64,000 bases of DNA. Origin: Microbacterium suwonense. Lineage in GTDB: Bacteria > Actinomycetota > Actinomycetes > Actinomycetales > Microbacteriaceae. Numbering within the stretch: position 1 is the first letter of the stretch; every line of letters begins with the position of its first letter. Made by a program: the position numbers and the translations under genes. Positions 27,022 through 37,353 of the stretch are shown here, piece after piece. Where the stretch lies: the NCBI RefSeq assembly GCF_030296555.1, contig NZ_AP027728.1:992001-1056000 (forward strand), in the 5' to 3' direction. Under the pieces are notes generated by a model, which saw only the letters and a list, made by a program, of their open reading frames with translations, was not told where the DNA came from and did no database searches.

Positions 27022-27617
27022 CTAGCGAACGGGGAGCGTACGTGGCCGCCACGACTCGCGACGGGCCTCGAACTGCGCGATCTTGTCTTCGTCGCGCAGA
27101 GTGAGCCCGATGTCATCGAGCCCTTCGAGGAGCCGCCATCTAGTGTAATCGTCGATTCCGATGGCGACCTGGAAGTCGGCGATCGTGGCGGTACGAGCCT
27201 CGAGGTCGACCGTGATCTCGCGGCCCGGCTGCTCGTCGATCAGCGTCCAGATGCGCTCGATGTCAGCCTCGTCGACCGTTGCGGCCAGCAGGCCCTGCTT
27301 GCCGGAGTTGCCTCGGAAGATGTCGGCGAAGCGGGAGCTGAGCACGACCTTGAAGCCGTAGTCGCGCAGGGCCCAGACCGCGTGCTCGCGGCTGGAGCCG
27401 GTGCCGAAGTCAGCACCGGCGACCAGCACGGATGCGGTCTGGAACGGCTCCTGGTTGAGCACGAACCCCGGGTCTTTGCGCCACTCGTGGAACAGTGCGT
27501 CCTCGAAGCCGGTCTTGGTGACTCGCTTGAGGAACACCGCCGGGATGATCTGGTCGGTGTCGACGTTGGAGCGCTTCAGCGGCGCCGCGATGCCGGTGTG
27601 CGTGGTGAACTTCTCCA

Positions 27618-27618
<1 letters not shown>
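27022..27618 (-). CDS. leuD: 3-isopropylmalate dehydratase small subunit
   Basis: LeuD and LeuC form isopropylmalate isomerase (2- to 3-isopropylmalate) in leucine synthesis. The 198-residue swivel subunit starts [31 protein letters not shown] and contains [17 protein letters not shown], the substrate-recognition loop. Its start overlaps the leuC stop (TGATG), so the pair is translationally coupled and should share the upstream attenuator. Confidence 0.97.
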
Positions 27619-29045
<1,427 letters not shown>

Positions 29046-29127
29046 GCGGTGTGTTCCTTATGGCTCGATGAGTCGGCCCACGATGGACTCCGCGACGAGG
29101 AAGGCCTAGATCGAGGTCCCGTCGCGG
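29046..29127 (-). promoter_or_regulatory. Candidate leucine attenuator of leuCD
   Basis: On the minus strand, arms CCGCGAC (29127-29121, inside the leader gene just after its Leu codons) and GTCGCGG (29096-29090) pair perfectly over 7 bp and enclose the leader stop codon. A TTCCT at 29102-29098 can pair with AGGAA of the leuC ribosome binding site (29058-29054). A ribosome stalled at the Leu run would cover the first arm and switch the folding. Whether control is at transcription or translation is unclear; no T-tract is seen, which favours control of leuC translation. Confidence 0.55.
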
Positions 29128-29156
29128 CTGCTAAGGAGGAGAAGCTCGTGCCGCAC
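29106..29156 (-). CDS. Leucine leader peptide (16 residues)
   Basis: GTG-initiated ORF encoding VRHELLLLSSRDGTSI then TAG. Four consecutive Leu codons (CTT CTC CTC CTT) stand just before the attenuator hairpin, and the gene lies 61 nt upstream of leuC. A TAGACT box ends 6 nt before the GTG, so the mRNA probably begins at the start codon. Attenuation of leu genes by Leu-rich leaders is established in other bacteria and predicted for actinobacteria; this instance is inferred from its structure. Confidence 0.7.
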   Translation of the reverse strand: MRHELLLLSSRDGTSI

Positions 29157-29162
29157 GAGGTC

Positions 29163-29168
29163 AGTCTA
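29163..29168 (-). promoter_or_regulatory. -10 box TAGACT of the leuCD operon
   Basis: TAGACT on the minus strand lies 6 nt before the leader GTG, predicting a leaderless leader peptide. The -35 region is weak (no TTGACA-like hexamer at 16-18 bp). Confidence 0.5.
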
Positions 29169-29218
29169 CAACGCGCCGGGACGCGTTCGCCCCGTTCGTG
29201 TCGACTGTGACGCGGCCC

Positions 29219-30208
29219 TCAGCGCTCGATGCTCGCGCGCTTGTCCCTCGAGGAGGAGATCAGGCTGGCGACCGTGGCGACCGCCATCGATCCGAAGATG
29301 ACGCCGAGCGAGAGCCAGTTGTCGATGTCGGGCGCCCAGTCGATGGGCTCGCCGCCGTTGATGAACGGCAGCTCGTTGACGTGCATGGCGTGCAGCACCA
29401 GCTTCACCCCGATGAACGCCAGGATGAATGCGACGCCGTAGTGCAGGTACTTCAGCTTCTCGAGCAGGTTGCCGAGCAGGAAGTAGAGCTGGCGAAGTCC
29501 CATCAGGGCGAACAGATTCGCGGTGAACACGATGAAGGGGTCGGTGGTGATGCCGAAGATCGCGGGGATCGAGTCCACCGCGAACATCAGGTCGGTGACG
29601 CCGAGTGAGACGAAGACGATCAGCATCGGCGTCCAGATCTTGCGGCCGTCGACCACCGTGCGCACCTTGGGTCCGTCATACTCCTCGCTGATCGGGATCA
29701 CGCGGCGGATCTGGCGGACGATGAAGTTCTCGGTCTGCGCGTCGTCGGCGTGCTTCTCGGGGAGCGACTGCCGGATGGCGGTGAACAGCAGGAAGGCGCC
29801 GAACACGTAGAAGATCGGGCTGAGGTGCTCGACCGCGGCGCCGACGATGATGATGAAGATCGCCCGCAGCACCAGCGCGATGATGATGCCCACCATCAGC
29901 GCCTCCTGCTGATACCGCCGCGGCACCGAGAACTGCGTCATGATCAGGATGAACACGAACAGGTTGTCGATGGAGAGGCTGTACTCCATCGCCCAGCCGG
30001 TGAGGAAGTCCAGCGAGGTCTTCGCGTCGCCGACGAAGTACAGCACACCGGCGAAGATCAATGCCAGGGTGACGTAGAACGCGACCCAGAGACTGGACTC
30101 CCTGGTGGTGGGGATGTGCGGGCGTTTCAGGATCAGCAGCAGATCGCCGATGAGCACGGCGGTCAGCACGACCAGTGCGGTGATCTCGAACCAGACGGGG
30201 ATATCCAC
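29219..30208 (-). CDS. TerC-family membrane protein
   Basis: A 329-residue integral membrane protein with seven to nine helices (TerC/Alx family). AMEYSLSIDNLFVFILIMTQF contains the conserved acidic Glu/Asp pair, and TDLMFAVDSIPAIFGITTDPF the second; these are the metal-site positions in family members linked to Mn2+ export and metalation of exported proteins. The start is GTG at 30208 with AAAGG 10 nt upstream; that ribosome binding site lies inside a hairpin (see the leader feature). The older name refers to tellurite resistance. Confidence 0.9.
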   Translation of the reverse strand: MDIPVWFEITALVVLTAVLIGDLLLILKRPHIPTTRESSLWVAFYVTLALIFAGVLYFVGDAKTSLDFLTGWAMEYSLSIDNLFVFILIMTQFSVPRRYQQEALMVGIIIALVLRAIFIIIVGAAVEHLSPIFYVFGAFLLFTAIRQSLPEKHADDAQTENFIVRQIRRVIPISEEYDGPKVRTVVDGRKIWTPMLIVFVSLGVTDLMFAVDSIPAIFGITTDPFIVFTANLFALMGLRQLYFLLGNLLEKLKYLHYGVAFILAFIGVKLVLHAMHVNELPFINGGEPIDWAPDIDNWLSLGVIFGSMAVATVASLISSSRDKRASIER

Positions 30209-35992: not shown

Positions 35993-35999
35993 CTGTTCG

Positions 36000-36072
36000 T
36001 GACCCCAGCGGGATTCGAACCCGCGTTACCGCCGTGAGAGGGCGGCGTACTAGGCCGCTATACGATGGGGCC
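36000..36072 (-). tRNA. tRNA-Glu (anticodon CTC), first copy
   Basis: A 73-nt cloverleaf on the minus strand: acceptor GGCCCCA with TGGGGTC (one G-T pair), discriminator A, anticodon loop CTCTCAC between CCGCC and GGCGG, and T-arm GCGGGTTCGAATCCCGC. CCA is not encoded. Identical to the second copy at 37281-37353. Confidence 0.97.
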
Positions 36073-37271: not shown

Positions 37272-37280
37272 GTCGCGCTG

Positions 37281-37353
37281 TGACCCCAGCGGGATTCGAA
37301 CCCGCGTTACCGCCGTGAGAGGGCGGCGTACTAGGCCGCTATACGATGGGGCC
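37281..37353 (-). tRNA. tRNA-Glu (anticodon CTC), second copy
   Basis: Sequence identical over all 73 nt to the copy at 36000-36072, including discriminator A; the flanks differ. It is transcribed toward the monooxygenase gene and stopped by the adjacent hairpin. Confidence 0.97.

Follow-up and report, generated by a model that had tools for sequence, protein, structure and literature searches.

A probable leucine-sensing leader with a tiny Leu-rich peptide gene upstream of leuCD in Microbacterium suwonense

The leader locus upstream of leuC

The window analysed here is a 64,000-nucleotide stretch of the M. suwonense contig NZ_AP027728.1. Its minus strand carries leuC (27618..29045; NCBIfam TIGR00170, 738 bits against a cut-off of 560), whose ATG stands at 29045, and leuD (27022..27618; TIGR00171, 195 bits against a cut-off of 116), which overlaps the end of leuC. 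Ahead of leuC, on the same strand, lies a short leader that is thought to control the gene. Its open reading frame (29106..29156) starts with GTG, reads VRHELLLLSSRDGTSI and comprises 16 codons and the stop codon TAG. The -10 box TAGACT (29163..29168) stands 6 nt ahead of the GTG. Within the frame, the run of Leu codons CTT CTC CTC CTT (29133..29144) is the proposed sensor. The hairpin P1 is formed by CCGCGACGGG (29118..29127) and CTCGTCGCGG (29090..29099). Its core joins CCGCGAC at 29127-29121 to GTCGCGG at 29096-29090, and in the window the full helix counts 10 pairs, including a G-U, between 29127-29118 and 29099-29090.

Folded alone, the leader is ordinary (z -1.22), and its structure becomes visible only by comparison. 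None of the 4227 models of Rfam 15 matched at 28950-29300 up to E 1, and a T-box or riboswitch was set aside on this ground. At gathering scores, Rfam found three tRNAs only in the window. The two genes for tRNA-Glu (CTC), at 35999-36072 and 37280-37353, are 1.3 kb apart and have the same Rfam score. Upstream of the leader, on the same strand, is a gene for a TerC/Alx family membrane protein (29222-30208, minus); NCBI labels this family riboswitch-linked, and the window holds no Rfam riboswitch. A 503-codon frame on the plus strand (27699-29210), antisense to leuC and the leader, is probably an artefact of high G+C content. In an unconstrained fold, pairing is possible between the leader start GTGCGG (29156-29151) and the CCGCAT around the leuC start codon (29049-29044, minus). 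This pairing looks incidental, because many other leaders start differently.

The leader is widespread in the family. We read 221 leuC upstream regions, namely the window, 80 loci of named organisms, of which 27 belong to Microbacteriaceae, and 140 loci retrieved with LeuC from 150 genomes that represent 85 genera of that family. In the 140-locus set, the genomes G036 and G080 gave two loci each and nine LeuC matches, all from the low-scoring end of the list, were left out; four upstream stretches are shared between the named-organism and genome-search sets. A hairpin accompanied by an in-frame Leu ORF was found in 110 of the 168 Microbacteriaceae regions (window 1/1, named organisms 19/27, genome search 90/140) and in none of the 53 others. 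Given this conservation, a chance hairpin was set aside. The initial annotation had proposed, from the window alone, a 16-codon GTG frame with four consecutive Leu codons and a 7-bp hairpin that follows these codons and spans the stop. Both are present, and across the leuC upstream regions of Microbacteriaceae the Leu codons are conserved and the hairpin covaries.

The 110 hairpin loci were filtered to 109 with a usable leuC start and 106 distinct sequences, 105 of which had a spacer long enough. From these, 77 representatives less than 78% alike were retained, and 71 leuC copies entered the alignment A1 and the covariance model R1. Among the named-organism leuC loci, R1 matches 19 of the 27 from Microbacteriaceae (8 of the 19 being training sequences) and 0 of the 53 others. 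It also matches 96 of the 140 genome-search loci (62 of them training sequences), with L159 matching weakly as well (E 0.007).

At 44 of the 140 genome-search and 8 of the 27 named-organism family loci, the element is absent or scores too weakly; the leuC element is thus dispensable. The eight named-organism loci belong to Curtobacterium, Frigoribacterium, two Agrococcus, Salinibacterium NG253 and Rhodoluna and include L020 and L022. Such gaps would fit a leader that is a relic at leuC, carrying a promoter and no regulatory role. We hold this to be exceedingly improbable, as most leuC loci preserve the reading frame, the codon usage and the crossing pair of helices. In a LeuC tree of 42 rows, rooted at the midpoint, Microbacteriaceae form one group and the element needs seven changes. 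Its history at leuC, as far as it can be read from this tree, may be one origin with losses. The LeuC of the window groups with Microbacterium, and the nearest row from a named organism is 93% identical.

Reading frame, pseudoknot and base stem

The coding character of the leader was assessed by a coding-blind test, in which the hairpin was located without using the coding sequence, on 104 leaders with a TANNNT box. In 98 of them, the first ATG or GTG past the box sets a frame in which the pyrimidine run reads Leu; the leader stop falls within the hairpin loop in 99, and 94 have 6 or 7 nt between box and start. In five listed exceptions, the script had picked the earlier of two candidate starts. 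Five further loci, three of them outside Microbacteriaceae, have no box. This count is fairer than the 109 of 110 hairpin loci in which a box was otherwise recorded, a figure skewed by the way starts were chosen, which gave preference to those with a box. Judged by the spacing of the -10 box, the leuC leader is probably leaderless. The initial annotation had argued the same from the TAGACT box 6 nt before the GTG, and the conserved spacing is consistent with it.

The codons of the run are unusual. In six ORFs of the window, CTT is used for a single one of 180 leucines, as against 204 of the 345 codons in leader Leu runs, and it is the last Leu codon of the run in 92 of 106 leaders. CUU and CUC are read by one tRNA, with the anticodon GAG.

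In P1, 99.7% of the cells are paired, and among the leuC copies both sides have changed at three pairs (22 cells); further pair types are no more numerous than in shuffles (232/500). A second helix, P2, joins bases just past the stop codon with a stretch 3' of P1, and therefore crosses P1. In the window it consists of four pairs between GGCC at 29103..29106, whose span includes the final base of the TAG stop, and GGCC at 29075..29078, both on the minus strand. In a fixed register, 79.9% of the P2 cells of the leuC copies are paired, with both-side changes in three of the four pairs. When the partners are shifted by 2 or 3 columns, both-side-change pairs number 7 against 6 unshifted, and far fewer cells are paired.

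P2 also occurs in copies of the leader that precede leuA-type genes and leuB (described below), 22 of 30 having at least five contiguous Watson-Crick pairs. Examples are GACCGGC with GCCGGTC and GATCGGCC with GGCCGATC. The mean over the 30 copies is 5.63 pairs, compared with 4.81 for swapped partners, and none of 5000 permutations was as high; in several of the 30 rows (e.g. L246, L257, L317 and L322) the script had misplaced P1, and these were counted unchanged. As comparison among the copies shows, P1 and the covarying P2 cross to make a pseudoknot that contains the leader stop codon. The initial annotation had recognised P1 and had missed the second, crossing helix, as well as the leuA copy and the prior knowledge of the element at leuA.

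A third pairing, P3, would join the last bases of the Leu run, plus the one that follows (TCCTTA, 29132..29137, minus), to the leuC Shine-Dalgarno sequence (TAAGGA, 29055..29060, minus), with six pairs in the window. At least six contiguous pairs are found in 62 of the 77 representatives. The Leu run binds its own Shine-Dalgarno at -10.17 kcal/mol and swapped ones at -9.21 kcal/mol, and the Watson-Crick helix has 6.64 contiguous pairs with own and 6.24 with swapped partners. In each comparison 1 of 5000 permutations was as good; the test leaves relatedness in, and pairing between Leu runs and Shine-Dalgarno sequences is fairly good whichever two are combined. A check of the two bases directly preceding the core of the Shine-Dalgarno gave a marginal result (p 0.04 with 44 sequences, 0.06 in a stricter set), 12 of the 77 representatives having been omitted for an unrecognisable core.

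In pseudoknot-free folding, a stalled ribosome raised the openness of the Shine-Dalgarno from 0.27 to 0.48, with an increase in 66 of 77 representatives. Swapped partners gave 0.29 to 0.46, so that own and swapped were not separated. For the window itself, openness went from 0.56 to 0.52 and peaked at 0.91 when the ribosome was placed on the stop codon. Overall, the P3 base stem is supported by these sequence comparisons but not proved.

The initial annotation had assigned the masking of the leuC Shine-Dalgarno to a TTCCT at 29102-29098 (minus), which P1 would free it from. Five pairs are indeed possible in the window. Across the representatives, though, own partners were no better than swapped ones, with 870 and 1328 of 5000 permutations as good, compared with 1 of 5000 for the Leu run. 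A TTCCT mask is therefore very improbable, and the Leu codon run appears to be the better-supported partner. Two broader ideas of the initial annotation, a leucine leader and a leuC Shine-Dalgarno that can be masked, are supported by the comparison.

Alternatively, the leader could act on transcription, the pseudoknot or Rho halting the polymerase before leuC unless a stalled ribosome blocks P1, and the match between Leu run and Shine-Dalgarno would then be secondary. Northern bands of 85, 65 and 45 nt from the leuA leader of Mycobacterium tuberculosis were interpreted by their authors as those of an attenuator (PMC3526491), and in the window P2 ends 82 nt, and the Shine-Dalgarno 102 nt, from the leader GTG. 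Against this stands the fact that no intrinsic terminator-like site was found on the minus strand between 28900 and 29400. Moreover, the Leu run and the Shine-Dalgarno match better within than between genomes, and the leuA leader of Streptomyces lividans is described as having no typical terminator (PMC8079986). We regard attenuation of transcription as unlikely.

Further copies of the leader and the missing IclR regulator

A related element was described upstream of leuA in Actinobacteria in 2005 by Seliverstov et al., under the name LEU element (PMC1262725). Applied to the M. suwonense genome with E up to 1, R1 finds two sites, one at leuC and one at leuA (E 1.4e-12), where the leader reads MPLGGLLLLSCRDES. 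At E up to 0.01, 145 of the 150 family genomes have at least one copy (46 one, 89 two and 10 three). In 10 of 10 cases, judged by reading the downstream protein, the third copy precedes a second, divergent leuA; one such protein, scanned as a 330-residue fragment, had 2-isopropylmalate synthase as its best NCBIfam match, just below the cut-off.

Class-wide, R1 matches 236 of 296 genomes at E up to 0.001, 14 of the 236 being Microbacteriaceae. We inspected 20 of the class matches: 19 lie ahead of leuA-type genes, identified visually by a stretch in common with the LeuA of M. suwonense, and one (L321) precedes leuB. Since the model trained on leuC copies recovers the genome's own leuA leader and, among the class matches inspected, almost always a leader of a leuA-type gene, the leuC leader is, by this kinship in sequence and structure, a LEU-type element and a copy of the switch known from leuA.

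Two side observations concern these copies. In L321 (genome G156), the first long ORF downstream of the LEU-type leader is leuB, a fragment of it being best matched by 3-isopropylmalate dehydrogenase; the element may therefore be reused for a third leucine gene. The sequence GTCTGAGGAGT is kept just upstream of the second-leuA leader in nine of ten cases (L246, L249, L250, L251 and L253-L257; not L248), and it also stands before two similar genes outside Microbacteriaceae (L319 and L323). It may be part of a promoter, or an operator.

The element at leuC coincides with a gap in the protein repertoire. In 51 of the 53 loci outside the family (L031-L083), leuC has a divergent IclR-type protein beside it, compared with 0 of the 27 Microbacteriaceae loci. 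A position beside leuC has been described for NdgR/LtbR (PMC4340878), and we call this protein NdgR/LtbR because of its place divergent from leuC; with NCBIfam it gives general IclR-type matches only, below cut-off. A search at E 1e-40, with one genome per genus, found no NdgR/LtbR in any of 85 Microbacteriaceae genomes. Elsewhere in the order, the same query recovered it from 52 of 55 genomes, and the four family genomes included in that set were again without it. IclR proteins other than this one are frequent in Microbacteriaceae, occurring in 139 of 150 genomes.

These observations raise the possibility that Microbacteriaceae lost NdgR/LtbR and copied the leuA LEU element, which in some genomes also stands before a second leuA, to leuC, giving a leucine regulon read by ribosomes in which the Leu codons would serve as both sensor and anti-Shine-Dalgarno. 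We put this scenario forward tentatively. Eight named-organism family loci (L016, L018, L020, L022 and L025-L028) have neither the element nor the divergent IclR protein beside leuC, so the replacement of protein by RNA is a correlation and not a shown event. If the scenario is true, an RNA switch has replaced a transcription factor, and a single sequence serves as leucine gauge and as mask of the following gene. The family is a candidate case of an RNA element at the target of a protein regulator that is apparently missing from the whole family. The leuC leader and its relatives also take a poorly understood RNA element beyond leuA: to leuCD, to a second copy of leuA and, in a single genome, to leuB. 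The roughly hundred natural variants also provide material for deciding the mechanism of the LEU element, a question left open in 2005.

Proposed mechanism and known systems

Taken together, we propose that the leader before leuCD is probably a leucine sensor that works through its tiny Leu-rich peptide gene. Comparison shows the elements on which such a sensor would be built, namely the ORF and its frame, the codon choice, P1, P2, the promoter spacing and the kinship with leuA leaders. Transcription would start at or beside the GTG, and ribosomes would load on the bare 5' end. The leader ribosome would then read the Leu run, almost all CUU or CUC, and enter the P1/P2 pseudoknot with its stop codon. 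If leucine is plentiful, P3 would close the pseudoknot as its base stem, a role suggested by the complementarity of the Leu run's last bases to the leuC Shine-Dalgarno, and would hide the leuC ribosome binding site. If charged leucyl-tRNA is short, the ribosome would wait on the Leu codons, cover the 5' strand of P3 and free the Shine-Dalgarno, so that leuCD would be translated. We give this reading, in which a ribosome stalled at the Leu codons of a LEU-type leader uncovers the leuC Shine-Dalgarno, a probability of roughly 60%; the stall, its sign and translation as the level of control are what we infer.

Mutants of the Leu codons of the Streptomyces coelicolor leuA leader, as reported in passages of PMC1262725, count against a stalled ribosome: they are said once to have had a certain effect, inconsistent with classical attenuation, and once to have had no influence on regulation. 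Yet changed Leu codons would also break P3. The same paper proposed, from a phylogenetic pattern, that the reader of the element is a helicase-like binder (orthologues of ML1624). A protein that reads the pseudoknot in place of the ribosome would account for the conservation of the pseudoknot, but it would need neither the conserved Leu frame, nor the rare CTT codons, nor the -10 spacing for binding alone, and we find it improbable. Reading by a stalled ribosome is our preferred explanation.

In the literature searched, mostly abstracts and passages and hence a weak negative, no leader RNA or peptide before leuC in Actinobacteria was found. As far as that literature goes, what is new is the element's place at leuC and the fact that this coincides with the apparent absence of NdgR/LtbR. 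Leaderless leuA leaders (PMC8079986) and leaderless cysteine attenuators (PMC9031893) are already on record.

The closest known system is the LEU element itself. It shares with the leuC leader an ORF with a Leu run, the pseudoknot and the base stem between Leu run and Shine-Dalgarno, and its leuA copies are recovered by the leuC-trained R1. It differs in that the element stands before leuC here, a word that PMC1262725 does not contain, and in that its authors proposed a protein ligand and deemed classical attenuation unlikely. The leuL1 leader of S. lividans, MRFGLLLLSCRGEGL, was found by RNA-seq to be leaderless and to have no typical terminator (PMC8079986). Its peptide is close to the leuA leaders seen here, whereas it stands before leuA and not leuC. 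Leaderless leader ORFs of mycobacteria that respond to cysteine, described as acting by ribosome speed, are likewise short frames in which codons for the pathway's own amino acid stand in a row (PMC9031893). In contrast to the leuC leader, they concern cysteine and other genes, and the passages available mention no pseudoknot. Finally, the ilvBNC attenuator of Corynebacterium resembles the leuC leader in having a leader peptide enriched for the pathway's amino acids; unlike the leuC leader, on whose strand nothing terminator-like was found between 28900 and 29400, it is described as having both a terminator and an antiterminator (PMC10272879).
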